NCBI GenBank assembly: GCA_949299755.1
Contig: CASGBA010000004.1
Span: forward strand, 1-64,000
Source: an uncultured Treponema sp.
GTDB taxonomy: Bacteria; Spirochaetota; Spirochaetia; Treponematales; Treponemataceae
Direction: 5' to 3'
Length of the DNA stretch: 64,000 bases
The notes beneath the pieces are model-generated. The model was not told the origin of the DNA. It did no database searches and saw only the letters and a list, made by a program, of their open reading frames with translations. A program made the translations under genes and the position numbers. Each line of letters begins with the position of its first letter. Position 1 is the stretch's first letter. Of the stretch, positions 873 through 19,580 are shown piece after piece.

Positions 873-2111
873 ATGAAACTTAAAATGAAAGCCATCAATA
901 TACGGTATTTTATTTATATATCCGTTACATCCATTATTTTACTTTTTTTTTCTTCCTGCAAAACATCTCCACAATTCACTGATCCTGTGGCAACTCAAAT
1001 CCTGGCGGACGGGGTATACGTATTCAATACTGAAAGGGTTTTGCGGGACATTGACTTTGAGGCCATGTATGCAGCCTACGGGATAAGCGCAAACCAGACC
1101 GTGACAAAAAAAAGCGAAGGGAATGCGGTTTTGATGCAAGGGGATTCCTTTGCTGACCCGGAGTCCGGCATAAAGCTTTCGATAAATATTGACGGTTCAA
1201 TCACCAGCCCCGACAACAGCACAATTCAGGGAAGACTGGACATGAACGGCTCCGTGATGTTTTCCGGTTTATACGAAGAAAACGGCCATACGATATTAAT
1301 ATCCTTAAAAGGTGTTTTAATATATCAGAGCAGGGACAGCTTGGCAGGAAATGAATTCAACGGTATTTACAAGGCGGTTGACAGCGGTACCGGAAGGAAC
1401 CAGGTTATAATGGTTAACAACGGCTTGTACATGTGGGAATACGAAACTCCCGAAGAAGGGGATTTCCTGCCCTGGCCGATAGTGGTGGAAGCGGACGGGA
1501 CTTTCAATACAGGTTTTGAATTTACAGCCAGATCTGTGATGCCGGGCCTCGGGGAAACCTTTTTTAGCACGGTTCATTCTTCGGAAGGAAAGCTGGGAAC
1601 AGGAGGGAACATCCTGATTCAAAACCTTACGGTGACAAACGGCACCAGCATGGTGGAAAACCAAGTTCCCTTCACTCTTGAGGGAGTGAGAGTTTCAACT
1701 GAGGACAGAAAAATTTTTTCTGAAAACGGGATTCCCGAATTTTCTTCCGGGGAAAAACAGTCTGCCTACAGCATGAAGTCTCCCAAGAATGTTCCGGGTT
1801 GGTACAATGAACAGCTCGTTTCAGAAAACGGTTTTTATATTTCCTGCGGAAGCAAATCATACGATGACAGGGACACCGCACTTAGGATTGCGGAAAGTAT
1901 TGCCGCGGGGAAAATCATTTCCCGCATCGGGCTTGAACTCAGCTCCAGCACGGAAACCGGCTCCATTTCTTCCGGGGACGGGGTTGACGGGGACAGGCTT
2001 TACGAAACGATTTCAACCCTTGCAGCGAAGGGAATTCCGTATACAGTCACAGAGAGCTTTTACGATGAGGGGACAGGAACTGCCTTTGTGAGGGTTGAGT
2101 CCGCATTGTAG
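873..2111 (+). CDS. Lipoprotein with C-terminal LPP20-like domain
   Basis: The 412-residue product begins with a basic n-region, a hydrophobic core (residues 12-26) and the lipobox FFSSC with Cys29, so it should be a lipoprotein exported to the periplasm or outer membrane. The central part is Gly/Ser-rich with beta-type turns and is not recognised. From about residue 318 the sequence (NGFYISCGSKSYDDRDTA, followed by a helical stretch) resembles LPP20/LppC-like domains, in which a G-x-G/S-S strand precedes a helix of repeated alanines. AAGAGG lies 5 bp before the ATG at 873; an in-frame ATG at 885 is an alternative. It is a single transcription unit with its own promoter. The function is unknown; the LPP20-like call is tentative. 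Confidence 0.75.
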   Translation: MKLKMKAINIRYFIYISVTSIILLFFSSCKTSPQFTDPVATQILADGVYVFNTERVLRDIDFEAMYAAYGISANQTVTKKSEGNAVLMQGDSFADPESGIKLSINIDGSITSPDNSTIQGRLDMNGSVMFSGLYEENGHTILISLKGVLIYQSRDSLAGNEFNGIYKAVDSGTGRNQVIMVNNGLYMWEYETPEEGDFLPWPIVVEADGTFNTGFEFTARSVMPGLGETFFSTVHSSEGKLGTGGNILIQNLTVTNGTSMVENQVPFTLEGVRVSTEDRKIFSENGIPEFSSGEKQSAYSMKSPKNVPGWYNEQLVSENGFYISCGSKSYDDRDTALRIAESIAAGKIISRIGLELSSSTETGSISSGDGVDGDRLYETISTLAAKGIPYTVTESFYDEGTGTAFVRVESAL

Positions 2112-2184
2112 TATTTCTTTTTGTTCAATTAAAGTCATTCTTCCAGTGTAAATTCACTAAAATGAATGAAATATAATTTAAATT

Positions 2185-3087
2185 TTACAGGCCGATGTTT
2201 TTCACAAAAACAATATGCGACACATCATACTGTTCCGATTCAAAAAGGACTGAACAGGGGACTTCCACGCAATAGCAGTTTCCGTAGTCGTATACCGGCA
2301 ATTTGTAATCCTCGCCATACCAGGAATTATCCCGGGCCGCAAAGTATGCGCCTTCCGCATGAGGGATAATATTTTTCCCCACCATGACACGGAACTTGGC
2401 GAAAAGAAGCATCATTTGAGCCATTTCCCGTTCCCCGAGTTCCCAGATGTTTCCGGTGCTTTTATGCCAGGTGTCCAGCAGAAAATCGCCGGTTTTGCCG
2501 TCAATCAGGTAGGTTGCGGCGTCCTTCCTGCCCAGGGTTCCGGACATCGTCTGCGCCAGCTCATTCAACCGGATCACGCCGTACAGCATGGCGGTTGTCT
2601 TTCCGTTCCGGATAACCGGCACATAATGGCGGATAACGTAGTCTTCGGTTCCGGTGACCGACGCTTCCCGGTTTGAGATATGCGCGCCGCGGGCAGCTTC
2701 CTCTTCAAACGAAATCCTTCCTTCAACGTTGATTTTCTGCCGGCTTCCCGTTATGATGGTGTTATCCGGAAGGAGCAGGGCAACGTCGTGCATGGTACCG
2801 ATGGTTTCGTAAGAGCTTAAAAGCCGCCAGAGCTCCGGGGACGCCGGATTGTCGTATGCGGCAACGAGGACAGCGAGCATTTCCAGCTGATCCCGGTCGC
2901 TTTGCGCGTACAGCTGTACATCCCGCGCTGCCCGTGCGGCTTCTCCGTGCAGTTGTTCAAAACTGAAATCTTCTTCTATATAATTGATCCACCGGACGAC
3001 GGAAATGGAAAGGGTGAGCATCAGGAGGATGAGAATCACTGTGAAGATAAGCGATTTCCGCCAGTGTATTCCGATGTCTTTTTTCAT
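2185..3087 (-). CDS. Membrane-anchored extracellular sensor (Cache-like), no output domain
   Basis: The start is placed at ATG 3087 (MKKDIGIHWRKSLIF), which has GAAGGAG upstream; the frame is open further but without a better ribosome site. The 300-residue product has one N-terminal transmembrane helix (about residues 13-32) and a periplasmic region resembling the Cache/PAS-like sensors of spirochaete diguanylate cyclases: a ligand-pocket segment HDVALLLPDNTIITGS, then DAATYLIDGKTGDFLLDTWHKS. Such receptors normally continue through a second membrane helix into GGDEF or MCP domains. Here the frame stops right after the expected end of the sensor (VEVPCSVLFESEQYD...), so the output module is missing. 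It may be a relic of a cyclase or a stand-alone sensor. No partner gene is adjacent. Confidence 0.6.
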   Translation of the reverse strand: MKKDIGIHWRKSLIFTVILILLMLTLSISVVRWINYIEEDFSFEQLHGEAARAARDVQLYAQSDRDQLEMLAVLVAAYDNPASPELWRLLSSYETIGTMHDVALLLPDNTIITGSRQKINVEGRISFEEEAARGAHISNREASVTGTEDYVIRHYVPVIRNGKTTAMLYGVIRLNELAQTMSGTLGRKDAATYLIDGKTGDFLLDTWHKSTGNIWELGEREMAQMMLLFAKFRVMVGKNIIPHAEGAYFAARDNSWYGEDYKLPVYDYGNCYCVEVPCSVLFESEQYDVSHIVFVKNIGL

Positions 3088-3197
3088 GAAATCAATCCGG
3101 CTCCTTCTTCCTTCTATTTTAGCCGGTTTTTGCGATAAATACAACTGCATTTATTTTTATCTGACCGCTTCTCCCCTGCGCTTCAGCCGCCCTCAGA

Positions 3198-3217
3198 CCT
3201 GCCTGCCGGCAGGCAGG
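3198..3217. repeat. 20-bp perfect palindrome CCTGCCTGCCGGCAGGCAGG
   Basis: CCTGCCTGCCGGCAGGCAGG is its own reverse complement. It lies between the Nudix gene stop (3234) and the sensor gene. There is no T-tract, so a classical terminator is unlikely. A related core (CTGCCGGCAGGCA) occurs inside nifJ near 51,947, which suggests an iterated palindrome family. Confidence 0.7.
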
Positions 3218-3233
3218 CGGTGCGGAAAAAGAA

Positions 3234-3641
3234 TCAGAGCATGGCGGAAATTTTGTCCAGAATGATTAAGTCGGCGGGGAGCCACTTTACGGTTTTTAAT
3301 GTTTCCGCGTTAAGCCAGGCTGCGTTTTCGTGTTCCAGAAGGGAAGGGGCTTTTTGTCCCGGAACCAGAGTGCAGGAAAAACACTGCATGGAAAGGTGGA
3401 AAGCCGGATAATCGTATTCAACTGTGCCAATGCGTTCTCCTGCAGAGATTTCTGCATCCAGCTCTTCTTTGATTTCCCGTGCAAGCGCTTGCTGCGGCGT
3501 TTCCCCCGTTTCGATTTTCCCGCCGGGAAATTCCCACCAGTCCTTGAATTCCCCGTATCCCCTCTGCACTGCAAAAACTTCCTTTGCACCGGAATCTGAA
3601 ATACGGAAAATAACCGCTGCGGCAACATTTATTGTTTTCAT
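3234..3641 (-). CDS. mutT: Nudix hydrolase, MutT/8-oxo-dGTP diphosphatase type
   Basis: The 135-residue protein contains a Nudix box GGKIETGETPQQALAREIKEEL, matching G-x5-E-x7-R-E-x2-E-E for binding Mg2+ and the diphosphate. WWEFPGGK and the whole-protein length fit the MutT branch, which sanitises oxidised purine nucleotides. The usual C-terminal acidic or aromatic residues (WLNAETLKTVKWLPAD) fit members that recognise 8-oxo-G. It is the last gene of the minus-strand run methyltransferase-endonuclease-vsr-mutT, 14 bp downstream of vsr. It may be a passenger or may protect the nucleotide pool. Substrate specificity is inferred from family. Confidence 0.85.
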   Translation of the reverse strand: MKTINVAAAVIFRISDSGAKEVFAVQRGYGEFKDWWEFPGGKIETGETPQQALAREIKEELDAEISAGERIGTVEYDYPAFHLSMQCFSCTLVPGQKAPSLLEHENAAWLNAETLKTVKWLPADLIILDKISAML

Positions 3642-3655
3642 GACAGGTCCGCTTT

Positions 3656-4108
3656 TTAAAATTCCTTAAACCTTACGCCGTGGTCTTCTTCCAGCCACAG
3701 GGCAATTTCTTCCGCAACGCTCAGGATTTTCTGCGCGCGGTTTTTTCCGGTAACCGAGCATTCCCATACAACGCCGACCCGCCAGCCGTCAGACAGAAGC
3801 TGTTCCGTTTCTTCCTTATCCCGTTGCCGGTTCCGGAGAAGCTTGTTTTTCCAGAATTCCGTATTTGTCCGGGGAAGATGCGCCTTGGGGCAGTGTTCGT
3901 GGAAATGCCAGAAACAGCCGTTTATAAAAATGACGGCGTGGTATTTTGGCAGAACGATGTCGGGCTTTCCCGGCAGTTTCCGGTAATTTTTCCTGAACCT
4001 GAACCCTGCCCGGTGCAGCTGGCTCCGGACAAGCTTTTCCGGTTTGGTATCGCTGCCCTTTATGCGGGACATATTGTAATGCCGCTGCTGCGGGGTAAGG
4101 GTGTCCAT
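3656..4108 (-). CDS. vsr: Very short patch repair endonuclease Vsr
   Basis: The start is placed at ATG 4108 (MDTLTPQQRHYNMSRIKGSD), 19 bp past the endonuclease stop; the frame continues upstream within that gene but without homology. The product (150 aa) has the Vsr signature: N-terminal TPEQR-x-x-NMS-x-IKG-x-DT-x-PE, then KLPGKPDIVLPKYHAVIFINGCFWHFH, in which Asp, His and Trp residues form the endonuclease site, and NTEFWKNKL. Vsr nicks 5' of the T in T:G mismatches created when 5-methylcytosine deaminates, so it belongs with the C5-methyltransferase two genes upstream. The ribosome site is weak, so translation may be coupled to the preceding gene. Confidence 0.92.
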   Translation of the reverse strand: MDTLTPQQRHYNMSRIKGSDTKPEKLVRSQLHRAGFRFRKNYRKLPGKPDIVLPKYHAVIFINGCFWHFHEHCPKAHLPRTNTEFWKNKLLRNRQRDKEETEQLLSDGWRVGVVWECSVTGKNRAQKILSVAEEIALWLEEDHGVRFKEF

Positions 4109-4127
4109 AAATAAAAAGTCTTGTTTT

Positions 4128-4940
4128 TTATTTGGAAAAACCTGTATAACTCTCAAATCCAAGCATATACACAGCCATTGCAACCGCCAAATCTTCGGAT
4201 TCAATATCCTGTTTTGCGGCCAATTCTCTCAATTCATCTATAACCGTATCATGCGGAACGATACTGCCATTCAGATCCTTTACTACTTTTTCTATAACCG
4301 CAGGAAGAACCATACACATTTTGTAAAAGGCGTCATCTTCCCCGGTTACCAAACCATAGAACTGATCAAGACTTACTCTGCGGATAAGTTTATGTCCAAC
4401 CCTTTTCTTATCAACGGTTGTTTCCCATTTAATATTTTGAGAATGCTGTGCAATCGCTTCTACCAAGAAACAGGCACAGTCGTCATCGTTCAACAACTGA
4501 TTCTGCATTTTAATAAAGGTTTTACCCGCCGAAGCAGAGTTCATTGTATTATGTTTGTTTTTCATTTCAACATAAACGGTGTGTACATTTCCTGCTTCAG
4601 GAATAGGGATGCCGTCAGGATTTTTATAAATTACATCCCAGCCGCCTTCTTCTCCGTTTGGCGGAACGTGGCAATTTTTAATATACTGGAAAATACGCTG
4701 GTGGAAATATCCAATATCGTTGTTATTGGACTTATCTCTTTGGCGGAAGATTTCGTTACTGACAATTTCTTCCCAAGAAGATTGATATACTGTTTTGTCA
4801 AAGATCAACTTAACCGGATCGATGATATTTTTATTGAAGCGCTTTAAATCAAATGATTCCAGTTTTTCCCCGTACTTTTCAATTGTCGCCTTGACATGGT
4901 TTGTAAAATCTTCCTCTGAAATAAAAGTTAAATTCCACAT
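4128..4940 (-). CDS. Type II restriction endonuclease, Eco47II family
   Basis: The 270-residue protein matches the Eco47II/SinI endonuclease family (GGNCC or GGWCC recognition in characterised members). A PD-(D/E)xK catalytic centre is visible: Asp102 in GGWDVIYK, then Glu125-Met-Lys127 in VYVEMKNKH. The segment MNSASAGKTFIKMQNQLL that follows is also characteristic. The ATG at 4940 is only 1 base from the methyltransferase stop (TAAAATG), with GGAG about 11 bp upstream inside that gene, so translation is probably coupled and methylase is made first. Base composition is more AT-rich than the flanking genes, suggesting transfer of the unit. The exact recognition sequence cannot be read from sequence alone. 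Confidence 0.88.
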   Translation of the reverse strand: MWNLTFISEEDFTNHVKATIEKYGEKLESFDLKRFNKNIIDPVKLIFDKTVYQSSWEEIVSNEIFRQRDKSNNNDIGYFHQRIFQYIKNCHVPPNGEEGGWDVIYKNPDGIPIPEAGNVHTVYVEMKNKHNTMNSASAGKTFIKMQNQLLNDDDCACFLVEAIAQHSQNIKWETTVDKKRVGHKLIRRVSLDQFYGLVTGEDDAFYKMCMVLPAVIEKVVKDLNGSIVPHDTVIDELRELAAKQDIESEDLAVAMAVYMLGFESYTGFSK

Positions 4941-4941
4941 T

Positions 4942-6171
4942 TTATAGTTTCTCCAAGGCTTCTTTTATTTTTACCGCAATATCATATGCCAAATTTACAG
5001 GAACAGCATTTCCGACCTGCTTGTACTGTTGTCCGGTACTCCCGCAAAACTGCCAGTCATCAGGAAAGCTCTGGCATCTTGCGTTTTCCCGGATTGTAAA
5101 CGGGCGTGCTTCCAATGGATGGCACCGGTCAGTCTGCTTTTGGCTTGGAGAGGTCAGTACGGCGAGCGAAGGCTCGTCTAAACTCAGCCTTCTTAAAATC
5201 CCAGTCCGTCCTCCTTCCATATACCAGCAGCTTTTCATATATTCCTTTGCAATGTCTTCGGGAATATCCCGCCAATATCCTCCGGGAGGAACCAATTCAA
5301 ATATTTTCCGTTTATATTCAGAGTAAGAAGCGCCTTCGCTTTTCGGACACTCAGGCAAAACATCCCGGAGGACGGGTTTATACTTATGAGGGGCAGGAAA
5401 TTCAAAAACTACTTTGTCTTTCAAATCATTGCGGATGCCTATTGTAATAAGCCGTTCCCGTTTTTGTGCCACGCCATAGTCCCAGGCATTCAATACCTTT
5501 TTTTGAATGGTATATCCTGTACTTTCAAAAATATCTGTAATCGTTTTATAGGTGCGCCCTTTGTCATGCGTAAGCAACCCCCTTACATTTTCAAATAGGA
5601 ACATTTTGGGCTGCAATTGTTCCAAAAATTTAGCGTAATGATAAAAAAGAGTTCCGCGGGCGTCCTCTAGGCCCAGCCGTTTTCCTGCATAAGAAAAACT
5701 TTGGCAGGGGGCGCCGCCGGAAAGCAAATCGAGTTCGCCCACGGCAAGATTAAAATATTCCTTCAAATCAAGACAGGAAATATTTGCTATGTCATCGTTG
5801 ATCACGCGCCAATTCGGGCGGTTGCATTTCAGCGTGTCAGAAGCGTCTTTATCAAATTCGATAAGTCCTAATGTCTCAAATCCGGCTTTTTCAATGCCCA
5901 GTGCCAGTCCGCCTGCACCGGCAAACAACTCTATTGTTGTAAAAGTTTTAGGAACAGTCTCCCTGTTCTTGTCTTGGGTAACCTCAATAATATCTCCAAT
6001 ATTGCATTGCAATGCAGCGCATATTTTTTCAATGCTTTCAAATGAAACTGTCTCATTCTTGCCCATCCGGGCCATTACATTGAAACTAATGCCCGCTGCT
6101 TCTTTAAGCTCTGTTTTATTCATATTTCTGTCTATAAGCAGTTTCCATAAGTTGTTATAGCAAACAGCCAC
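4942..6171 (-). CDS. DNA (cytosine-5) methyltransferase with N-terminal XRE-type HTH
   Basis: The start is placed at GTG 6171 because GGAGG lies 7 bp upstream and the helix-turn-helix begins immediately; an in-frame GTG at 6204 lacks a site. Residues about 1-65 form a Cro/CI-like HTH (LWKLLIDRNMNKTELKEAAG... IEKICAALQCNIGDII). Residues about 80-409 are a C5-methyltransferase: motif I ELFAGAGGLALG, motif IV GGAPCQSF with catalytic Cys156, motif VI FLFENVRG, motif VIII QKRERL and motif X KQVGNAVPVNLA. It protects the host from the Eco47II-like enzyme downstream. The HTH fusion suggests it represses its own operon, as shown for some other C5 methyltransferases; that role is inferred. Confidence 0.93.
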   Translation of the reverse strand: MAVCYNNLWKLLIDRNMNKTELKEAAGISFNVMARMGKNETVSFESIEKICAALQCNIGDIIEVTQDKNRETVPKTFTTIELFAGAGGLALGIEKAGFETLGLIEFDKDASDTLKCNRPNWRVINDDIANISCLDLKEYFNLAVGELDLLSGGAPCQSFSYAGKRLGLEDARGTLFYHYAKFLEQLQPKMFLFENVRGLLTHDKGRTYKTITDIFESTGYTIQKKVLNAWDYGVAQKRERLITIGIRNDLKDKVVFEFPAPHKYKPVLRDVLPECPKSEGASYSEYKRKIFELVPPGGYWRDIPEDIAKEYMKSCWYMEGGRTGILRRLSLDEPSLAVLTSPSQKQTDRCHPLEARPFTIRENARCQSFPDDWQFCGSTGQQYKQVGNAVPVNLAYDIAVKIKEALEKL

Positions 6172-6447
6172 AATATGCCCTCCGCCCTGCACAATCAAAA
6201 ACACAAAATCGGGTTATTTATATCATAGCATGTTTTTACCGTAAAAGGGAAGGTTCTCATGAATCCGTTAGAAATTCTCCCGCCCCTGCTTCCCGCATTT
6301 CCGGCGGAGGGGCAGGCTGGAAACCTGTTTCATGATGAAGGCAGCGGATGCTGTCGGACGCAGATACCGGGCAGGCAATGGGCGGGGAAGGGCGTGCGTC
6401 TGGCAGGCAGACGGGAAGGGCGGCTGCCGGAAGCCGCCGGCGCGGGC
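6172..6447. other. Intergenic region, unusually GC-rich, no supported gene
   Basis: This lies between the divergent ends of the restriction operon and the GH5 gene. A plus-strand frame from ATG 6259 to 6516 has a good ribosome site (GGGAAGG, 6 bp before the ATG). However, its predicted product is Gly/Arg/Pro-rich, resembles no family I know and runs through the GH5 terminator, so it is not called. Direct blocks of GGCAGGC-type sequence occur at 6312-6320 and 6400-6410. Confidence 0.4.
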
Positions 6448-6480
6448 AAAAAAAATCCGGCTGCGTTGAACCGCAGCCGG
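6448..6480 (-). terminator. Rho-independent terminator of the GH16-GH5 operon
   Basis: Read on the minus strand, CCGGCTGCGG (6480-6471) pairs with CGCAGCCGG (6465-6457) and is followed by a run of eight T (6455-6448). It lies 28 bp after the GH5 stop. Confidence 0.85.
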
Positions 6481-6507
6481 AGCAGGATGTGTTTTAATGC
6501 CGGAGGA

Positions 6508-7539
6508 TTACAATAATTTCACAAGCCGTTCCGCAATAGAATTGTAGTGCTTTCCGCTTATGCCGAAATCTTTTTCCTTGTACGTCCACACAGCCCGGGC
6601 AATATCATACTCTTCAAACGCGGCGTGGATATCGGCAAACCAGCGCAGCGTACTTTCCGGATCGGCTTTGTCGATTACGCCGTACTCCCCGCAGTACAGG
6701 GGAACGTTGTACTTCTCGCTGACAGCAACGGCTTCGGCGAACAGGCGTCCGAAAAATGCGCTGTCAATGGGGGCGTCCCCGTTTCCGAACTCCCGGTCAA
6801 AATCACTGCCGAAAACGTCCTGCGATTTCCGGCGCAGCGTCTGCAAGTTTTCCGGATAGGCAACAGACAAATCCGCGGGCATGTTTTCAACCCAATATGC
6901 AGACTGGTGGGTAAAAATCATCGGACTGTAGCAATGGAACGTAAAGACAATATTCCCGTCATACGGTTTGTCCAGCAGACGGAGGCCGTAAATACTGCTG
7001 TTATAAATTCCGCCCAGAATAATCCGGACGTCCTGATTCATCCTGCGGATTGCCTTCACCGTTCTTTCTGCAATCCGGTTCCAGATTTGCGCGGTTTCTT
7101 TCGCCGTGATTTCATTGAGAAGTTCAAAGGCCACCCGTTCGGAATACTTGCCGTAGCGCCGCGTGAATTCCTCCCACACCCTGACGAAATTATCCTGCAG
7201 AGATTCATCCGTAAAAAAGCGGCAGTAATTTTTGTCGTCAAAAATATACCCGATTGTTTTGTGCAGATCGAGGACGGTATTCAAATTGTACTTGCCGCAC
7301 CATTCGATACATCGGTCGATATACCCGAATCCGCTTTCAATAAAGCTTCCGTCTTCGTTCTGGAACAAATGAAAATCCACCGGCAGCCTGACATGGTCGG
7401 TTCCCCATCCGGCGATTTTTTCAATGTCCTTTTCGGTGATGAACGTATCAAACCGCTCCTTTGTGTAATTTCCTTCGCCGCATTGCGACAGCCATCCGCC
7501 GAGATTCACGCCTTTCTTAAAGCCTTTGAATTCCCTCAT
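6508..7539 (-). CDS. Glycoside hydrolase family 5, cytoplasmic or non-secreted
   Basis: The start is at ATG 7539 (MREFKGFKKGVNLGGW), with GGAGG 10 bp upstream. The 343-residue (beta/alpha)8 enzyme has the GH5 landmarks: GVNLGGW near the N-terminus, HVRLPVD, VLDLHKT, the acid/base glutamate in AFELLNE (Glu143) and the nucleophile in YCGEYG (Glu285), with FHCYSP and VWTYKEKDFG typical of endo- or exo-beta-glucanases of the GH5 cellulase/exo-1,3-glucanase type. No signal peptide is present, so it probably acts on oligosaccharides inside the cell. It starts 25 bp after the GH16 gene, in the same operon. Substrate is inferred from the GH16 partner: beta-1,3- or mixed-linkage glucan. Confidence 0.88.
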   Translation of the reverse strand: MREFKGFKKGVNLGGWLSQCGEGNYTKERFDTFITEKDIEKIAGWGTDHVRLPVDFHLFQNEDGSFIESGFGYIDRCIEWCGKYNLNTVLDLHKTIGYIFDDKNYCRFFTDESLQDNFVRVWEEFTRRYGKYSERVAFELLNEITAKETAQIWNRIAERTVKAIRRMNQDVRIILGGIYNSSIYGLRLLDKPYDGNIVFTFHCYSPMIFTHQSAYWVENMPADLSVAYPENLQTLRRKSQDVFGSDFDREFGNGDAPIDSAFFGRLFAEAVAVSEKYNVPLYCGEYGVIDKADPESTLRWFADIHAAFEEYDIARAVWTYKEKDFGISGKHYNSIAERLVKLL

Positions 7540-7564
7540 CGAATAATTCCTCCGTTGTATGCTG

Positions 7565-9427
7565 TTATAAACCGGAACCGGTTTTTTCAAGAATAATATT
7601 ATCGATACAGATTCTATGTTGTTTTGAAATACGTTTACCGTCAACAGCTCCCATGGACAAACTGAAAACACTTTGATCATCAGTATCATGATTCATGGTG
7701 AAATCAAGGGAGAAAGTCTCATACTTATCTGTCAGTGCCACGATTTTCTCTCCGGAGTACGGTGTCCAGTCATCATTATGCTTGCTGCCGTCACGTTGTA
7801 TTGCGAACATGATTTTTCTGTCAACGCTGGACTTCGCATCGAAGGAAAGCCGGTAGCGCTGACCTTTTTCAAGATGGATTCCGTTCTGCTTCAACTGAAT
7901 GTGCCATGACTGGTTGCCGGTGTCTATAATAGTGAAATCAGCTGCATTGTCCTCTGACAGGCTGTCCACAACCCAGCTCACATTATCCGGCGCATATGCG
8001 TAAGGTTCAAAACCGGTGAATCCGGCGTTGAAACTGCCGTTCCTGATCAAGCTATCTTCCGTCAACGCTACATTATCGATGAGGTAAACACCGGGAGATG
8101 AAAAGGTCAAAGACACATTCTTGTCGCCCGGGTCGTCAATAGAAAATTTGATGCTGTAATTTTTCCGTCCTTTCTCAAGAACAACCGGAAAACTTGTGCC
8201 ACCGGCTTTCACCATAATCGTGTCACCGGCTTTGCCTTCGATATCCGCAGTAAACACATAGGTGCCTTCCGCAAGTGCAAGTCCGCTTTGCCGGAGCACA
8301 AGCGCATTTGCCGGGTTTATCTTCATGCCGTCAATCGAAAGTCTTCTGCCGTCTGCGAAGTCTGTTACAGAAATGATTGCCGCCCCATTGTTCTCTATTT
8401 CCCAAAAACCAAGCCGTCCGTTACCTTCCTGGAATTTCCCGTTGTAAATATAATTGCCGTCTGCAAGCACCTGTTTGGATTTTTCATCTGGAGCACGCAG
8501 AACAACTTCCTTTTCAGGCTTTGTTACGTTTTCATCATAGTTTTCTTTTTGCCAAACCTTTACATAATCAACTTCATAGCGGGCATTCTTAAAGTCAGTG
8601 GTTCTGTCAGGGTAACCTACCCAACTTCCGCCGACAGCAAGATTCAGGATGATGTAGAAAGGCTGGTCAAAGGGCGCCGGATAGGTGATTTCGCCCTGTC
8701 CTTCCGTGACAGAGTACCAGTCGTTTTCCCGGTGGATTAAAAACCCGTCCACATACCAGCTGATTTCCCCCGGCTCCCATTTTACGGCAAACGTATGGAA
8801 GCTGTCCGCAAATGTCCCGTTGCGCAGCGTCCTGGTTGCCTGGCTCTGTCTGTGCGGGTTGCCGTAATGAATGGTTCCGTATGTCGTCCTTGTGTCGCTT
8901 CCGTGAACCTCCATGATGTCGATTTCCCCGCACCGCGGCCACTGTCCGTAGACGTTTTCATCGGTAGCCATGAGCCAGAATGCCGGAAGGAAGCCATTGC
9001 CTTCCGGGACTTTCAGGCGCGCTTCAAAAACACCGTAGGTAAAATCCCGTTTGTTTTGCGTACTGATCCGTCCCGACGTGTAATGGATTTTGCCGTTTAC
9101 CGTGCTTTTAACCGGCCGGATAACAAGATTCCCGTTTTCAATAAAAATATTTTTTTCAGAATCAACATATTCCTGAAGCTCTTCATTCACCCATCCCGGT
9201 TCATGCAGCTCTACATTCCAGTCGTTCCGGTTTAAGCCCGGGCCGTCAAAATTGTCCTCCCAGACCAGGGAATACCCGTCAAGGTTGAGGTCATTGCCCA
9301 TTGTGACAGACTCTCCGGACGGTTCACCGGAGGAATCAATTCTTTCCGCACTGCCGGTTGTTGCCGTGCACGCAGCGACCGTCAAAACAGATATTGCAGC
9401 AATAATCATGTAAAAATTTTTATTCAT
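7565..9427 (-). CDS. GH16 endo-beta-glucanase (laminarinase-type) lipoprotein with two C-terminal carbohydrate-binding modules
   Basis: The 620-residue product has a signal peptide and lipobox TVAAC (Cys20), so it should be anchored in the envelope. Residues about 50-295 are a GH16 domain containing GEIDIMEVHG: Glu168 nucleophile, Asp170 and Glu173 acid/base. The extra Met between Asp and Glu (E-I-D-I-M-E) is the form seen in laminarinases (endo-1,3-beta-glucanases). The aromatic and charged WPRCGE and FHTFAVKWEPGEISWYVDG strands are conserved. Residues about 320-455 and 460-615 are two related beta-sandwiches (NGKFQEGN..., NGSFNAGF...) of the CBM4/9 type. GGTGG precedes the ATG. It lies between the lipoprotein gene upstream and GH5 downstream, so it should provide the extracellular first cut. 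Confidence 0.93.
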   Translation of the reverse strand: MNKNFYMIIAAISVLTVAACTATTGSAERIDSSGEPSGESVTMGNDLNLDGYSLVWEDNFDGPGLNRNDWNVELHEPGWVNEELQEYVDSEKNIFIENGNLVIRPVKSTVNGKIHYTSGRISTQNKRDFTYGVFEARLKVPEGNGFLPAFWLMATDENVYGQWPRCGEIDIMEVHGSDTRTTYGTIHYGNPHRQSQATRTLRNGTFADSFHTFAVKWEPGEISWYVDGFLIHRENDWYSVTEGQGEITYPAPFDQPFYIILNLAVGGSWVGYPDRTTDFKNARYEVDYVKVWQKENYDENVTKPEKEVVLRAPDEKSKQVLADGNYIYNGKFQEGNGRLGFWEIENNGAAIISVTDFADGRRLSIDGMKINPANALVLRQSGLALAEGTYVFTADIEGKAGDTIMVKAGGTSFPVVLEKGRKNYSIKFSIDDPGDKNVSLTFSSPGVYLIDNVALTEDSLIRNGSFNAGFTGFEPYAYAPDNVSWVVDSLSEDNAADFTIIDTGNQSWHIQLKQNGIHLEKGQRYRLSFDAKSSVDRKIMFAIQRDGSKHNDDWTPYSGEKIVALTDKYETFSLDFTMNHDTDDQSVFSLSMGAVDGKRISKQHRICIDNIILEKTGSGL

Positions 9428-11985: not shown

Positions 11986-12139
11986 GATTTTCCTGCTTCC
12001 TTTCGAATAAAGCATAATAGCGTGCTGCATCACTATACTTTGTCAATTTTCGGAAAGAAGAAGGATAAACACAGCGAAAAGTTTCGTGCAATCCTTGAAT
12101 CAAAAGAGGGTTTTTTACCGGAAAGACATTCGTCATCAT

Positions 12140-12307
12140 GTTTCTATTTTAACCTGCTTCAAATTAAACCGAAATGTGACTAACTAAAATCACAGTTACA
12201 ATTATTGTAAGGGAAATTTCTATCCCATTGCATTAAAATAATTACAAATTTGGCACCCCATTTTCCGAAATAAGACTTAAGTAATAACAAGGAGTCGGCG
12301 ACACTCC
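12140..12307 (+). promoter_or_regulatory. AT-rich region before the first CRISPR repeat (possible leader)
   Basis: No gene is visible. A 15-bp perfect dyad TTACAAT-T-ATTGTAA lies at 12196-12210. It ends in GGAGTCGGCGACACTCC directly before repeat 1. It is called a candidate leader only because it lies upstream of the array in the transcription direction; no repeat degeneracy reveals the polarity of spacer acquisition. Confidence 0.35.
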
Positions 12308-14651
12308 GTTGCAGGTTGACCAGAAAAATTAATCAGTTATAATTCGTCCTCATAAGAAAGGTTACTTATGGACGTTGCAGGTTGACCAGAAAAATTAATC
12401 AGTTATAATTCCGACATAGTACGGACGATGATGACGAGAGTTGCAGGTTGACCAGAAAAATTAATCAGTTATAATCGTTAAATTTGTCAACAACGTTTGA
12501 TATTCGTTGCAGGTTGACCAGAAAAATTAATCAGTTATAATGGCTTGTTTCGCGTCAGCGACAGCACGTTGGTTGCAGGTTGACCAGAAAAATTAATCAG
12601 TTATAATCAAAGAGCCTCGCTGAAACAATTTGTTGTCGTTGCAGGTTGACCAGAAAAATTAATCAGTTATAATTATAGGGAAAAAACCTAAAGAAGAAGG
12701 TACGTTGCAGGTTGACCAGAAAAATTAATCAGTTATAATCGGCGGCACTTCTTCTGTCCCTCAACTTGAGTTGCAGGTTGACCAGAAAAATTAATCAGTT
12801 ATAATGGGAACAAGTGGCGGGTTGATACAACGCAAGTTGCAGGTTGACCAGAAAAATTAATCAGTTATAATCATACACAAAGTCTAATAAAGCTACATGA
12901 AGTTGCAGGTTGACCAGAAAAATTAATCAGTTATAATCGGACCAGAAGAGGATGAAGCGTGACGTCCGTTGCAGGTTGACCAGAAAAATTAATCAGTTAT
13001 AATTCCGGAAGAGTAAAGGTTCTGATTCATGTAGTTGCAGGTTGACCAGAAAAATTAATCAGTTATAATAAAGGGTGGGTTTAGGCCACGAGAAAGATAG
13101 TTGCAGGTTGACCAGAAAAATTAATCAGTTATAATTCAAAATAACGCAATATAGTCATGGGAAAAGTTGCAGGTTGACCAGAAAAATTAATCAGTTATAA
13201 TAAAAATGAAAAAAATAATACCTCAAATTGAGTTGCAGGTTGACCAGAAAAATTAATCAGTTATAATTCCGCAATAAGTAGCGTGAAAGTTCGCGAAGTT
13301 GCAGGTTGACCAGAAAAATTAATCAGTTATAATCAGCGTGATCTTCATCAACTTTCTTTGGATGTTGCAGGTTGACCAGAAAAATTAATCAGTTATAATC
13401 TGAGGTGTCGCAGGCCTTTAAAGAGTTGGTTGCAGGTTGACCAGAAAAATTAATCAGTTATAATCATGGCATACATGAAGGACCTGACTTCTGAGTTGCA
13501 GGTTGACCAGAAAAATTAATCAGTTATAATCGCAACAAACAAAGCCTTCACCATGTCTTTGTTGCAGGTTGACCAGAAAAATTAATCAGTTATAATAATA
13601 CCAGCAAATATTGTACGATGTGGCGAGTTGCAGGTTGACCAGAAAAATTAATCAGTTATAATAACATCAGTTTGCTGAAGAGTATAACGCATGTTGCAGG
13701 TTGACCAGAAAAATTAATCAGTTATAATATTTCGACGCATATAAACGAGCCTGCTGCTGTTGCAGGTTGACCAGAAAAATTAATCAGTTATAATGGAAAA
13801 GAAGTAATTTCAACAGATGGGTATGTTGCAGGTTGACCAGAAAAATTAATCAGTTATAATGACGTTGACGATATTAAAGGTAAAATATTAGTTGCAGGTT
13901 GACCAGAAAAATTAATCAGTTATAATTCATCTTCAGATGAATTGGAACCAAATTTAGTTGCAGGTTGACCAGAAAAATTAATCAGTTATAATTCTGAAGG
14001 ATAATCCAGGCACGGAAGCCACGTTGCAGGTTGACCAGAAAAATTAATCAGTTATAATGTGCTCACTGGCGCCATAGATTGGACTAGAGTTGCAGGTTGA
14101 CCAGAAAAATTAATCAGTTATAATAGGTCCGTGTCAAAGCCGTCAATATTTACGGTTGCAGGTTGACCAGAAAAATTAATCAGTTATAATAATTGAGGGA
14201 ATTACTTGAACCAATTATGAGTTGCAGGTTGACCAGAAAAATTAATCAGTTATAATATTTCAATATTTAAATGATGATGTTCTTATGTTGCAGGTTGACC
14301 AGAAAAATTAATCAGTTATAATAAAAGTTGGCGGTTGGAATCCGGTAAAGCAGTTGCAGGTTGACCAGAAAAATTAATCAGTTATAATTTTAGCAAAAAC
14401 CGGAGCACATTTTTCATAGTTGCAGGTTGACCAGAAAAATTAATCAGTTATAATGTACGAGAACACAATGATCCCGGCGGCGGAGTTGCAGGTTGACCAG
14501 AAAAATTAATCAGTTATAATTGAATTCGGAAGAAATTGGGTTCAGCATGAGTTGCAGGTTGACCAGAAAAATTAATCAGTTATAATGAAACCTGTACGGA
14601 GCAGAAAACTGTCGAGTTGCAGGTTGACCAGAAAAATTAATCAGTTATAAT
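12308..14651 (+). CRISPR. Type II-C CRISPR array: 36 identical 36-bp repeats, 35 spacers
   Basis: The repeat begins GTTGCAGGTTGACCAGAAAA and ends ATTAATCAGTTATAAT. I traced 36 copies from 12308-12343 to 14616-14651 and saw no base differences, including the terminal copies. Spacers are 30 nt except two of 29 nt (13400-13428 and 14587-14615). Plus is the crRNA strand: the tracrRNA anti-repeat near 19,425 is complementary to this strand. Each repeat holds a promoter: TTGACC at repeat nt 9-14, 16 bp, TATAAT at nt 31-36. Transcription would begin about 7 nt into each spacer and yield about 24-nt guides, as known for Neisseria meningitidis II-C arrays. The array is convergent with cas9-cas1-cas2 and is followed at once by a terminator. 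Several spacers look like coding DNA, but no source could be searched. Confidence 0.98.
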
Positions 14652-14710
14652 AGGTGCAATCTATTTCCTTACCACACATGGAAATAAGGGAGGTTGCACC
14701 TGTTTTTTTT
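14652..14710 (+). terminator. Rho-independent terminator abutting the last CRISPR repeat
   Basis: AGGTGCAA (14652-14659) pairs with TTGCACCT (14694-14701), and inside it TATTTCC pairs with GGAAATA; a run of eight T follows (14703-14710). It should stop all repeat-initiated transcripts before they run antisense into cas2. Confidence 0.85.
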
Positions 14711-14719
14711 ACCTTTTTT

Positions 14720-15058
14720 TCAAAATAAAAGGTACTGTTCAGGTGATTTTTTTTGTATTTTTGTGCCTGCATTATAGCTGATAATATTTCCATACTGTTT
14801 GTCCGTGACTGTAAGGATATCAACTTTTCCCTTGGAAGGCAAGTTGTCTTTTATAAGCCGGTAATACTTTTCACAGGCATCTTTTCCTGAAAAAAGCTTT
14901 ATATATATAGAATATTGAACCATTGAAAAGCCGTTATTTAACAGGAAATTCCTAAAATCCGTAGCTTCTTTCCGTTCCCTGTCTTCAACAACCGGCAAAT
15001 CAAAAAAAACAAGCATCCACATCAGTTCATACCTATTTAATACGGGCAAAGTCCTCAT
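14720..15058 (-). CDS. cas2: CRISPR-associated Cas2
   Basis: Cas2 forms the adaptation complex with Cas1 that inserts spacers. The product (112 residues from ATG 15058) has the beta1 strand WMLVFFDLPV with the conserved Asp of DLP, then DRERKEATDFRNFLLNNGFSMVQYSIYIK, the ferredoxin-like fold seen in type II Cas2. The C-terminus ends KSPEQYLLF. The start is uncertain: ATG 15058 overlaps cas1 by 26 bp, whereas ATG 15022 lies after the cas1 stop with AGGT 8 bp upstream and begins MWMLVFFDLP. It is the last gene of the cas9-cas1-cas2 operon; the array terminator lies right behind it. Confidence 0.95.
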   Translation of the reverse strand: MRTLPVLNRYELMWMLVFFDLPVVEDRERKEATDFRNFLLNNGFSMVQYSIYIKLFSGKDACEKYYRLIKDNLPSKGKVDILTVTDKQYGNIISYNAGTKIQKKSPEQYLLF

Positions 15059-15953
15059 TTTCCAATCCAATTTCAGGAAGTTTTATATCGGTTTTCTTGG
15101 TTTCAAGGCAATCTATGTATGACGAAACCATATAAAGCATACTTTGTGAAACAGGAGAACAACCTTGACAAGTATCCATTTTTATCCATAACGAAGAAAT
15201 CATATATTTCTTCGTCTCAGGCGTAACTTCATTTTTCCCTGCTTCCACCAGTCTGTAAACATGATAGTCTATTATAGGTCTATAAATTTCAAAAAAATCG
15301 TCCGCCAGGCAAAACTGATTTAAATTATTATCATGGTGGACGCCAAGAGAAGCTAAAAGTCCTCTTGCACAAATAGCCCTTGCCATCGAAGCCCGCATAA
15401 CCGCATAACCATAATTTAAAAGGGCATTTATACCTTCTCCGTTTTTATCACGGACAAAATCCTGTCCAAAAAGTTCTTTCCAATATATTTTAGCTCCACA
15501 AGCCTCCCTGTTATCGGAATCACCTGATTTTACAAGGGAAGCAGTCCTGAGTAATTCATTGCTCCCAGATGTTTTTCCAAATATCTTCAAAACCAAGGCT
15601 TGATTCAACAGCTTTTTAATGACAATTTGTTGCCAGATTCTTTTTTTTAAAGGCAAGGAAGCTTCAATCTGAAGTTTTAATATTTTGGCAAAAAGGTAAT
15701 TAGAATAAAGAGGAACAACCATACTCGAAGGAGTATAATTTTTACCGCATAAAACAGTAACGCAACCCTGCTCTGCCAAAGCATTGAGAATATTTTTTGA
15801 CAGACAGGTGCTTTGGGCTGATATTAAAAGCAATCCCACATCTGAAAGAGGAACCGCAGCCAATACAGAGTCAGAATCCTTTATGAGGATAAAACCCCTT
15901 GAAAGAGAAAGAAACCTGTTTTCCTCAAATATTTCCAAAACTCTGTTGAGCAT
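15033..15953 (-). CDS. cas1: CRISPR-associated Cas1 integrase, type II-C
   Basis: The 306-residue protein matches type II Cas1: N-terminal beta domain RGFILIKDSDSVLAAVPLSDVGLLLISAQ, then the helical domain with EACGAKIYWKELFG (conserved metal-binding Glu), INALLNYGYAVMRASMARAICARGLLASLGVHHDNNLNQFCLADDFFEIYRP with the conserved His and Asp residues. It acts with Cas2 to integrate protospacers next to the repeat. AAGG lies 4 bp before the ATG; the gene starts 30 bp after the cas9 stop. No csn2 or cas4 is present, which defines the locus as II-C by gene content. Confidence 0.97.
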   Translation of the reverse strand: MLNRVLEIFEENRFLSLSRGFILIKDSDSVLAAVPLSDVGLLLISAQSTCLSKNILNALAEQGCVTVLCGKNYTPSSMVVPLYSNYLFAKILKLQIEASLPLKKRIWQQIVIKKLLNQALVLKIFGKTSGSNELLRTASLVKSGDSDNREACGAKIYWKELFGQDFVRDKNGEGINALLNYGYAVMRASMARAICARGLLASLGVHHDNNLNQFCLADDFFEIYRPIIDYHVYRLVEAGKNEVTPETKKYMISSLWIKMDTCQGCSPVSQSMLYMVSSYIDCLETKKTDIKLPEIGLENEDFARIK

Positions 15954-15983: not shown

Positions 15984-18900
15984 TTAGGTCGTTTTTCTAA
16001 AAACCCTTCCTATGGGATTAACCGTTATGAATCTGGCTGACTTTTCACCAAAAAGAACATTTACGGAAATAAAATTCTGTCCCTTGTGTCTCTTCCAGCA
16101 CGGCTCCGTCATATTGTCATTTGTAGCCACAAGCCAATCAGCGCAGTCCGTCACGCTAAAAACAGGTCTGATATCTAAACGTCCATCAGAACCCTTCAAA
16201 CCCGCAATCCTGCACATGTACCAAATCCCTTTGTCAGAAAATTCCAAATAATCCCCTTTATGGATAGTGCAAATCTTTTTTGCAGCAGGATGCGGTTTGA
16301 TTTCTATAATTTTCTTATCTATCCCTATTTCATCCCTGCGCACATATTGGGCTTTATAGGTATATTTTCCATCTTTTTTTTCTGGAGGTATCTCCCAAAC
16401 AACCGCAGCAAAATAGTCTTCTGGAGCTAAATACCGTGGATTTGAGTCCTGGCAAAAAACAATAGGAGTTTGAACCGTATTGAAACACCGGACTTTCTTT
16501 ATTTTATATTTTTTCCCGGATTCTTTCGAAGCTTTGCCAACCCAGACCTTTTCTGAAAAGCGCTGCATAACATCTTCAAATTTTTCACCGGAATGTTCAC
16601 TTATAAATTCCTTGATTTTTCGACGTATTGCATCATCAACAACAGAATTTATATCTTTTTCTTGTAACGATATAACGGGAACCCTTGTGACATATTTAGC
16701 TTTGTAAATTTTTACTTGCGGATATATATCCTTAAAATAAGTCTGGGTATCTTTTATATTCCCAGTTTCATTAAATTTAGCAAGGAAATCATCCCGAACT
16801 TTATCATTTTTTATTTGCAAGATATTTTCTTTGTTCTTAATTTCAGCCAAAGGAACCATTTCTTCCCTTTTTATTTTACCAAGATAAGTTTCCTTTGACA
16901 GCTTCCCTTCTATTCCATGGTCAGGTTTGAAACTCACGACTATATTTTTGATTTTCTTTTGCAACTCAGAGTAATCAAAGGGGAAAGGGGGAAATTCAAT
17001 ACGGTTCTTGGTTTTTTGGGCATTCATCGTTGCAATCTGCTGCACCATTGAACGGTCAGTCAATCCTATAACAATGGCATCCAAGGCATGATGCCGATGA
17101 TCATACCTGTTTTTCTTATAAGCACCGATATCCGAATCTTTTAAATTAAAATGAGCGATTTCTTCTGCCCCTATTTTTCTTTTAAGAACAGCATCGATAT
17201 TCCATTTATCGCGCATCATTTTTGTCATACCGCCGTTCACAGACCAGATATTGGAATCGGAACAAATAGCAGACAGATACTTCCTTGCACTCTTTGAAAG
17301 ATATGCGTTGTCCGTAAGCTGACGGGCAATAAAGTTGCTGTTTTCCTCAAAATCTTTCATGGCGGTTTCGGAAAAACGTCTCTTTTTTTCCGTATTTTTC
17401 AGTTTACTTACCCGCTCTAAAATCTCATCCCATTTGTATCCGCGAGGACTGGAACCAAACGCTTCAAAAGGACTGCGCTCGCCCTTGGCGGCGTTACAAG
17501 CTGCATGGGCGACAGTTAAATTACTTTCACTATCTAAAAGAGTTTTTCCATACGGAAGTATATGCTCCACTTCTATGTTTTTTGAAAATAATTCATTTGC
17601 ACCAATTTCTTTCCCACAATACAAACATTTAGCGGGCATACTGTTTTCCCCACGAAGCTCTTCCCAGAGTAAATATTTTAATCTATCATTTCTGGAAGGA
17701 TATTTAATTGCAGATGCCATACCTGTTATTATTTTATTGACGATTTCATTCCGTTTTCTGTTCTCATTCTGGATTTTTTGAATCCTTGCTTTATCTTCCC
17801 TGCTTGATTTTAAATCCCGGGACAATTCAATTACAATCTGGGAAGGTTTCCCGTATTGCTTTATCAATGCATTGACTACGGTTCTTGTTTGGTTAAGCGC
17901 GACATGCACGGTGGGATTTGAAATTTTGCCGTATTTCTTTTCCGGTTCTGATTCAGGCTTTGACATATCAGCTCCCATTGTGGAACCGGTTAAAACTTTT
18001 CCGTAGTACGGAAGAATATCCTGCGGTTCTACAGAACTATCTGCATATTTATAACCCAATTTTTCCACAGCAACATGAAATTGAACTTGAACTTGATGCT
18101 CTTCCATTATATGGACAATTTTTTCTGTCACCTCTTTACACAGCATGCTCGTTCCAGAAGGAAACACAATTGCGGCAATATTTTTCTTTTGTTCCTCTGA
18201 AAGTTCATAGTCTTTCAGCAAATCATATATTTCGGAATCTTCTTGTGCTGTAATAAGTTTTTCTACAATTTTGTCCTGTTCCTCCAAGGACAATTCATCC
18301 CAGGAAGAACCAAAATTTTTCTTATTCCGGAGGATTACCGCTGTTTCATTTCCTTTCAGCTCAGATCTGCCTTTTTCAAGATTGAAAGAACAGCTTTCAT
18401 TTAAATCCAATGCCTTACGTATGGAATCAAATTTAACCGTTTTTTTTGTATCAAGCAAGGCTATTATTGTCCGCTGCTGACCCTCCGAAAGAGGCATAAT
18501 TTGCATGAGCTCATTCTGGTAATTTAAATTATACACTTCCTGCAAAATGCGGTGTTTTTGCGCACAGGGCATCGCCTTAAATGTCCGCTCTTTTTCCGGC
18601 ATATACTGGCATTTTCCCCGTTCCTGTGTACGCAAAGGCCTCTGCCGGAACAGGGCGTCATATATCCCGTCCCAGTCTATCTGGCTGTAATAAGGAAGCT
18701 GGGCGTTTTTTACAGCAGTAAATTCATCTATATACATCTGCCTCAATGGATAATACGGCATCCGTCCGGGCACAAAACGAATTCCCCCGTGTTTTTCCCT
18801 GTTTTTCCACAAAAACTCTCCCAATGTCCTGCATCCTGATTTTTTTATTTCATTTTCAAGATTTGCGCACATTTCATTCTGAGACAAAGAGGCTTTTGCC

Positions 18901-19331
18901 GCCTCCGGATTCATCTCTGTATTTCCGTCTTTTCTGTTGCTTTTAAATCCCCTGTGGACAGAAAAATTAAAAAGAACCCTGCCCAATTCATAGGGCTCCA
19001 GTTTTGAATCCAATGCTTTTACTCTAAGCTCATAAGGATTCAATATTTTAAGTTTTAGTGCTTCAGTTTTATCAGAAGGAAACAAACCTTGTTTTTGCAA
19101 TAACCGGAAAGCAGCATTTCTCCGTTGCTTTCTACGGTATAGTTGACGGCGCTGCCCTCTGGCGATTCTTCGTGCAACAGCCAGCGGCTCATTTGTTTTG
19201 GGATCCCGCCCGTCAGAAAAAATGCGTACGCCCGCATCAATCAGATTTTCCGGCTCTTTATTTTCACTTAATGATAAGACACACCATCCAATAGAATTCG
19301 TTCCCAAATCAAGACCTAAACGCCACAACAT
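15984..19331 (-). CDS. cas9: Cas9 RNA-guided endonuclease, type II-C
   Basis: The start is at ATG 19331 (MLWRLGLDLGTNSIGW) because GGAGG lies 6 bp upstream; the frame is open to 19379 but this would run past the -10 box. The protein has 1115 residues. RuvC-I is LGLDLGTNSIGW (Asp8), followed by the Arg-rich bridge helix (ARRIARGQRRQLYRRKQRR), RuvC-II IVIELSRD (Glu502), an HNH domain with CLYC, EHILP (His590) and an HAACNAAKG motif, and RuvC-III HHALDAIVIG (Asp751). All four key catalytic residues are present. The length is at the long side of II-C. It makes double-strand breaks in DNA guided by crRNA:tracrRNA. PAM cannot be read here. It heads the operon with cas1 and cas2; its promoter diverges from tracrRNA. 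Confidence 0.98.
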   Translation of the reverse strand: MLWRLGLDLGTNSIGWCVLSLSENKEPENLIDAGVRIFSDGRDPKTNEPLAVARRIARGQRRQLYRRKQRRNAAFRLLQKQGLFPSDKTEALKLKILNPYELRVKALDSKLEPYELGRVLFNFSVHRGFKSNRKDGNTEMNPEAAKASLSQNEMCANLENEIKKSGCRTLGEFLWKNREKHGGIRFVPGRMPYYPLRQMYIDEFTAVKNAQLPYYSQIDWDGIYDALFRQRPLRTQERGKCQYMPEKERTFKAMPCAQKHRILQEVYNLNYQNELMQIMPLSEGQQRTIIALLDTKKTVKFDSIRKALDLNESCSFNLEKGRSELKGNETAVILRNKKNFGSSWDELSLEEQDKIVEKLITAQEDSEIYDLLKDYELSEEQKKNIAAIVFPSGTSMLCKEVTEKIVHIMEEHQVQVQFHVAVEKLGYKYADSSVEPQDILPYYGKVLTGSTMGADMSKPESEPEKKYGKISNPTVHVALNQTRTVVNALIKQYGKPSQIVIELSRDLKSSREDKARIQKIQNENRKRNEIVNKIITGMASAIKYPSRNDRLKYLLWEELRGENSMPAKCLYCGKEIGANELFSKNIEVEHILPYGKTLLDSESNLTVAHAACNAAKGERSPFEAFGSSPRGYKWDEILERVSKLKNTEKKRRFSETAMKDFEENSNFIARQLTDNAYLSKSARKYLSAICSDSNIWSVNGGMTKMMRDKWNIDAVLKRKIGAEEIAHFNLKDSDIGAYKKNRYDHRHHALDAIVIGLTDRSMVQQIATMNAQKTKNRIEFPPFPFDYSELQKKIKNIVVSFKPDHGIEGKLSKETYLGKIKREEMVPLAEIKNKENILQIKNDKVRDDFLAKFNETGNIKDTQTYFKDIYPQVKIYKAKYVTRVPVISLQEKDINSVVDDAIRRKIKEFISEHSGEKFEDVMQRFSEKVWVGKASKESGKKYKIKKVRCFNTVQTPIVFCQDSNPRYLAPEDYFAAVVWEIPPEKKDGKYTYKAQYVRRDEIGIDKKIIEIKPHPAAKKICTIHKGDYLEFSDKGIWYMCRIAGLKGSDGRLDIRPVFSVTDCADWLVATNDNMTEPCWKRHKGQNFISVNVLFGEKSARFITVNPIGRVFRKTT

Positions 19332-19352
19332 TTTTTCCTCCGTACAATAGCC

Positions 19353-19379
19353 ATTATAGCACAGATATATGAAAATCAA
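19353..19379 (-). promoter_or_regulatory. cas9 operon promoter
   Basis: On the minus strand a consensus -10 TATAAT (19358-19353) is preceded by TGTGC and a -35-like TTGATT (19379-19374) at 15-bp spacing. The transcript would start near 19346, giving a leader of about 15 nt with GGAGG. Confidence 0.65.
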
Positions 19380-19388
19380 ATAAAATAT

Positions 19389-19417
19389 TTGACAACCATT
19401 TTATATCAGTGTATACT
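19389..19417 (+). promoter_or_regulatory. tracrRNA promoter
   Basis: -35 TTGACA (19389-19394), 17-bp spacer, -10 TATACT (19412-19417). The predicted start is about 19424. An inverted repeat CAGTGT (19407-19412)/ACACTG (19422-19427) flanks the -10 and start site and could be an operator. Confidence 0.85.
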
Positions 19418-19423
19418 GAACAC

Positions 19424-19544
19424 ACTGATTAATTTTTTTGGTCATCCTGCTAACAAGGGGTCTTTGACCCCGCAAAATGCTTTTACATTGCCTTCAATGT
19501 AAATAGTTTCAAATGTAAAAGGAAGCTACGGCTTCCTTTTTTTT
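19424..19544 (+). ncRNA. tracrRNA
   Basis: The predicted RNA of about 120 nt begins with the anti-repeat. ACTGATTAATTTTTTTGGTC (19424-19443) pairs with the 3' two thirds of the repeat, and CCTGC-TAAC (19446-19454) with its 5' GTTGCAGG through a bulged U. Next come a GGGGTC-TTT-GACCCC hairpin (19457-19471) and TTTACATTG/CAATGTAAA (19482-19503). A terminator stem AAAAGGAAGC-TACG-GCTTCCTTTT with T8 ends it (19517-19544). The TACG loop closed by C-G is a UNCG tetraloop. It lies upstream of cas9 in the opposite direction. Anti-repeat, promoter and terminator all agree, so it is near certain, though exact ends are predicted. Confidence 0.92.
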
Positions 19545-19580
19545 CGCTCCGCCTTTCTCCTATAATTATAATACCATGTC

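Follow-up and report, generated by a model that had tools for sequence, protein, structure and literature searches.

The production of crRNAs from promoters lying inside the repeats is a stated property of type II-C CRISPR-Cas systems (PMC12638026, PMC12080349, PMC7038990, PMC8092290), and this central idea was already published in 2013. In Campylobacter jejuni, the crRNAs start at spacer position five according to dRNA-seq, a −10 box ends each repeat and the crRNA 3′ end is made by RNase III (Dugar 2013, PMC3656092). The accounts of Zhang 2013 given in PMC5006608 and PMC7038990 describe promoters inside the repeats of Neisseria meningitidis, 5′ ends that are independent of processing and an RNase III that is dispensable. 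The crRNAs of Clostridium cellulolyticum contain 23–26 nt of spacer (PMC7038990), and the repeats of this organism were reported to resemble an extended −10 element. Flavobacterium II-C repeats carry a putative promoter motif, TTG, located ~33–35 bp upstream of each spacer (Hoikkala 2021, PMC8092290; PMC10309648). Feussner 2025 (PMC12080349) places II-C acquisition at the last repeat and describes an oldest repeat in which most mutations fall within the first 15 nt; the authors suggest that the promoter of this extra repeat has to be preserved.

The window (the whole stretch of 64,000 nt that was analysed) carries an ordinary type II-C CRISPR-Cas9 system with the following features:

12291..12307, plus strand: small hairpin GGAGTCGGCGACACTCC, seen in the sequence immediately 5′ of repeat 1
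12308..14651, plus strand: CRISPR array of 36 identical 36-nt repeats, transcribed towards cas2 (orientation from the anti-repeat)
12316..12343, plus strand: putative promoter of the first repeat (TTGACC-16-TATAAT), predicted start ~12348–12350
14652..14709, plus strand: predicted intrinsic terminator, a long imperfect hairpin followed by T8 (−22.4 kcal/mol, z −3.8)
14720..15070, minus strand: cas2 (TIGR01573, E 4.9e-18)
15033..15953, minus strand: cas1, type II (NMENI) (TIGR03639, E 3.1e-76)
15984..19379, minus strand: cas9, 1131 aa (TIGR01865, E 1.6e-175)
19389..19417, plus strand: tracrRNA promoter TTGACA-17-TATACT
19424..19454, plus strand: tracrRNA anti-repeat, complementary to repeat nt 1–30 and not to TATAAT
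19517..19545, plus strand: tracrRNA terminator

The gene content is that of II-C: three cas ORFs (cas9, cas1 and cas2) and, within this locus, neither csn2, cas4 nor any additional ORF from the array to cas9. As expected for II-C, the anti-repeat lies near cas9, the tracrRNA being just upstream of this gene and divergent from it, and in the window orientation the array is transcribed opposite to the cas genes. The anti-repeat pairing defines the plus strand as the crRNA strand. A TTGACA −35 box was found 5′ of the anti-repeat in 23 of the 23 tracrRNA loci listed. The tracrRNA pairs with repeat nt 1–30 in 23 family loci, with short extra pairing beyond in a few; since the consistent pairing stops at nt 30, nt 31–36 are not fixed by it. 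An Rfam scan of the locus gave no match, not even to a tracrRNA model, the spacers of the window array matched no phage records, and a scan of viral contigs detected no relatives of Cas9.

The repeat, GTTGCAGGTTGACCAGAAAAATTAATCAGTTATAAT, is present in 36 exact copies separated by 35 spacers (33 of 30 nt and two of 29 nt), and no further copy with two or fewer mismatches was found in the whole genome. A previous sequence-only reading had stated that all 36 repeats hold both boxes of a σ70 promoter 16 bp apart, and this is exact in every copy, with TTGACC at repeat nt 9–14 and TATAAT at nt 31–36. The 36 repeats are mutual copies and therefore represent one observation, not 36. An exact TATAAT combined with a 5/6 or better match to TTGACA at a distance of 15–19 bp appeared in 67 of 200,000 shuffled repeats (3e-4), and the same box pair at 15–19 bp was absent from the remainder of the window (123,380 positions over the two strands). 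Being both rare in shuffled repeats and absent from the rest of the window, the box pair goes beyond chance, and its conservation in relatives makes it more convincing.

The locus resembles that of C. jejuni in having cas9-cas1-cas2, a tracrRNA and repeats that each end in a −10 box. The C. jejuni promoter is, however, an extended −10 promoter (GGTAAAAT), whereas the window array has TTGACC-16-TATAAT without the TG that would stand one base before the hexamer, repeat nt 28–29 being AG. The terminal repeat nucleotides of Neisseria were reported as an extended −10 as well, so that the absence of TG here also differs from the system of Neisseria as described in the accounts cited. For Flavobacterium only the TTG motif is claimed, in different repeats, whereas both full boxes are present in the window. 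No description of a full −35/−10 pair in II-C repeats was found in the literature searched, two central papers lying outside the search. By analogy, the window array probably works like the Neisseria/Campylobacter class, but not in the extended −10 form. The mechanism of guide production is already known; the window array adds a −35/−10 promoter in place of the extended −10, and the promoter-per-repeat production of crRNAs is extended to a spirochaete family, in an unusually complete form kept across related species. The proposal that both boxes are stronger than those of Neisseria was not supported; without the TG, the repeats appear to represent another class of promoter, not one of greater strength.

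We consider it likely, with a probability of roughly 80%, that each repeat of this type II-C array is a σ70 promoter of its downstream spacer. RNA polymerase would bind TTGACC and TATAAT within the repeat, with the −35 box presumably contributing, and would start ~5–7 nt into the next spacer; the resulting crRNA would carry a ~24-nt guide and then repeat sequence. The start for the first repeat (~12348–12350) was derived from C. jejuni and σ70 geometry. A purine is found among the predicted starts (spacer nt 6–8) in 33 of the 35 spacers, which makes this geometry usable. The earlier proposal of a promoter directed into the next spacer, with a start near spacer nt 5–7 and a guide of ~24 nt, fits the published II-C systems by analogy, and the −10 box is constrained in relatives. 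The tracrRNA, transcribed from its own promoter beside cas9, would pair with repeat nt 1–30, and RNase III would cut the crRNA:tracrRNA duplex to generate the 3′ end; as in C. jejuni, the 3′ ends probably still depend on RNase III. New repeat-spacer units would join at the cas2-side end, and a leader promoter would be unnecessary because every new spacer would arrive with its own promoter. Read-through would halt at the hairpin terminator abutting the last repeat. The expectation that each spacer is expressed equally appears unlikely: a search of the array strand gave no terminator-like site within the array, and 36 tandem promoters 66 bp apart without an internal terminator should, by read-through, favour the 3′ (newer) spacers, assuming no interference between polymerases. 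A compact stretch of DNA serving both as promoter and as crRNA handle could be of use in guide arrays. The small hairpin immediately before repeat 1 might conceivably be a guide-masking hairpin of an extraneous crRNA, as described for II-C; its folding was no better than that of shuffled sequences.

Relatives were collected as loci from whole genomes of the source organism's order and family. Both boxes are kept in the alignment of homologous family repeats: TTGAC is present at nt 9–13 in 16 of 16 distinct repeats and TATAAT in 15 of 16, with TACAAT in the remaining one, and nt 14–20 are the most variable stretch. This uniformity is partly due to the search pattern, and an unbiased array finder agrees in its eleven family arrays. 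Three loci from neighbouring families (L048, L050 and L051) have neither box, and the repeat promoter is thus not universal. A wider set of II-C loci contributed 24 further non-redundant repeats, and in these the match was highest with TATAAT placed at nt 31 (3.88/6; next 2.58) and TTGACA at nt 9 (3.21/6; next 2.96, at nt 2), which gives the same 16-bp geometry. TTGAC together with a good −10 box occurs in other lineages too (e.g. L070, L092, L186 and L187). Across 28 repeat clusters TTGAC accompanies strong −10 boxes (P = 0.02), a co-occurrence that loses significance once GC content is taken into account by partial correlation (P = 0.11), and no trade-off between an extended −10 (TG) and the −35 match was seen.

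The oldest repeat, free of pairing and acquisition, reveals what the repeat DNA is needed for, and its comparison among arrays is an evolutionary test of promoter function independent of RNA data. In II-C no spacer precedes the 5′-most repeat, so its 5′ half is used by no useful crRNA (PMC12080349). No spacers in common among the family loci were found that would fix the acquisition end, and the age polarity (oldest 5′, acquisition 3′) was therefore drawn from relatives whose 5′ repeats are eroded and whose 3′ repeats are intact; in the window, where all repeats are identical, the same polarity is assumed. The 5′ end was visible in 56 arrays. In 28 of them the first repeat was eroded, or a relic was found at one repeat-unit distance, and the 3′ side was kept in 28/28 of these, while the last repeats were intact in 75 of 77 cases; of the two exceptions, one was masked sequence. 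A second set, gathered after the first, contained 13 eroded first repeats, 0 keeping only the 5′ side, and 32 of 34 intact last repeats. Wrong-distance relic calls amounted to 1 in 550.

The point changes in the retained part of the first-set repeats numbered 6/268 in nt 1–8, 6/263 in nt 9–14, 21/846 in nt 15–30 and 0/324 in nt 31–36, the difference between the last two regions giving P = 0.001. The second set alone went in the same direction without being significant (1/174 versus 6/461, P = 0.39), and both sets combined gave 1/498 versus 27/1307 (P = 0.0013), in an analysis designed after the pattern had been seen. The sole change in nt 31–36, in L181, keeps TA...T. This retention of the −10 box was examined here at base level, a point absent from the text of Feussner 2025 (PMC12080349) as far as it was available. 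Because the oldest repeats are free of tracrRNA pairing and acquisition, transcription of the first spacer offers the best explanation for the sparing of this hexamer, and a functional −10 box is well supported by these comparisons.

The evidence that the −35 box is functional is moderate, the family data being suggestive only. Across all II-C, nt 9–14 of the oldest repeats changed at the rate of nt 15–30 and were thus not specially protected; in the family, nt 9–13 had 0/71 changes against 13/284 in nt 15–30 (P = 0.05; leaving out a sister genome gives 0.07). A uniform-breakpoint test of the oldest repeats, with P = 0.06 in the family and P = 0.72 in the others, was set aside as evidence. It is conceivable, though we favour it less, that the promoter consists of the −10 box by itself, in a minimal or partly extended form with G at −14, and that TTGACC is kept only because nt 1–14 form the Cas9-bound repeat:anti-repeat stem. 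C. jejuni does operate with an extended −10 only, and the oldest repeats of L036, L039, L040, L041, L045 and L049 have TATAAT without TTGAC. Seven other oldest repeats of the family, scrambled within nt 1–8 (L037, L038, L047, L136, L139, L142 and L145), nevertheless hold TTGAC exactly, although no crRNA needs it there, and the association of TTGAC with strong −10 boxes across the 28 clusters speaks, with its GC limitation, in the same sense.

The σ70 promoter reading would lose its main comparative support if the retention of the 3′ side were passive, that is, if erosion entered from outside the array and had not yet reached the inner side, since the 3′ side of the oldest repeat would then be uninformative on promoter function. 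In many cases one unbroken stretch, starting at the 5′ edge, has indeed been replaced, the breakpoints ranging over nt 1–29, and relics shorter than ~7 nt are undetectable. We regard this explanation as rather unlikely, as the scattered point changes in the retained part avoid nt 31–36 (the combined comparison above) and two uncounted relics, in L039 and L049, keep only TATAAT, at the right distance. Still less probable is that the boxes are a by-product of tracrRNA pairing, which would fix nt 1–30, of recognition of the repeat end (nt 31–36) by Cas1-Cas2 and of an AT-rich genome; a leader or an outside source would then drive transcription of the array, and RNase III would cut the RNA as in type II-A. 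Nucleotides 9–13 do lie inside the tracrRNA duplex, and a leader promoter was proposed for the II-C lineage Riemerella (PMC5006608). The oldest repeats, unused for pairing or acquisition, still keep nt 31–36, however, no good promoter was found in the 388 bases preceding the array, and the register peaks recur in other II-C repeats.

The hairpin at 14652..14709 starts at the first base 3′ of the last repeat, and such a hairpin was present in 24 of the 24 family loci inspected. In 11 aligned sequences, 11 of the 16 pairs changed on both sides, and the covariation was 0.555 versus 0.315 in shuffles and 0.10–0.17 in slid controls. The natural reading of this element is a terminator for the array RNA. 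The terminators studied in Feussner 2025 (PMC12080349) lie upstream of the array, whereas the one in the window abuts its downstream end. Since the 5′ arm starts right after the last repeat, RNA from an upstream repeat can fold the whole hairpin, and RNA from the last repeat, starting at ~nt 7, cannot: it is predicted to be minus six bases of the 5′ arm, the removal of which changed the mean hairpin folding energy from −21.9 to −11.0 kcal/mol. It is a speculative and improbable idea that the array is a closed cassette in which the stop signal separates the transcripts, so that the RNA of the last repeat may run antisense into cas2. If true, the antisense transcript would report on the promoter at the acquisition end and could lower the expression of cas1-cas2. 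The bases downstream of the hairpin, around AGAATAAAAG, are also conserved and may be part of an acquisition leader.

Several other observations were made in the relatives. L152, from genome G701 of another family of the class, has a Cas9 score close to that of the family members and a very similar repeat (TTGACC...TATAAT), which suggests that the locus was acquired by horizontal transfer. In L037, a lone repeat-like element at ~5710–5760 (minus strand), ~0.9 kb from the array and on the opposite strand, keeps TTGACC and TATAAT; it is possibly a stray promoter or an array remnant. L048, a relative from another family, has a second, nearly perfect anti-repeat (~11990–12040) upstream of the tracrRNA anti-repeat. 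L139 is rearranged (1489–9103): the array separates cas9 and a DUF3800 gene, which share one strand, from cas2-cas1, which occupy the opposite strand, and its cas9-tracrRNA module is thus oriented opposite to the usual. Elsewhere in the window, a cassette at 3656–6204 (minus strand), ~6 kb from the CRISPR array, encodes an Eco47II-type restriction endonuclease, a Vsr mismatch endonuclease and a C5-cytosine methylase that carries an HTH domain, and a GH5 and a GH16 glycosidase gene lie side by side at 6508–9427 (minus strand), the GH16 gene including a carbohydrate-binding domain.
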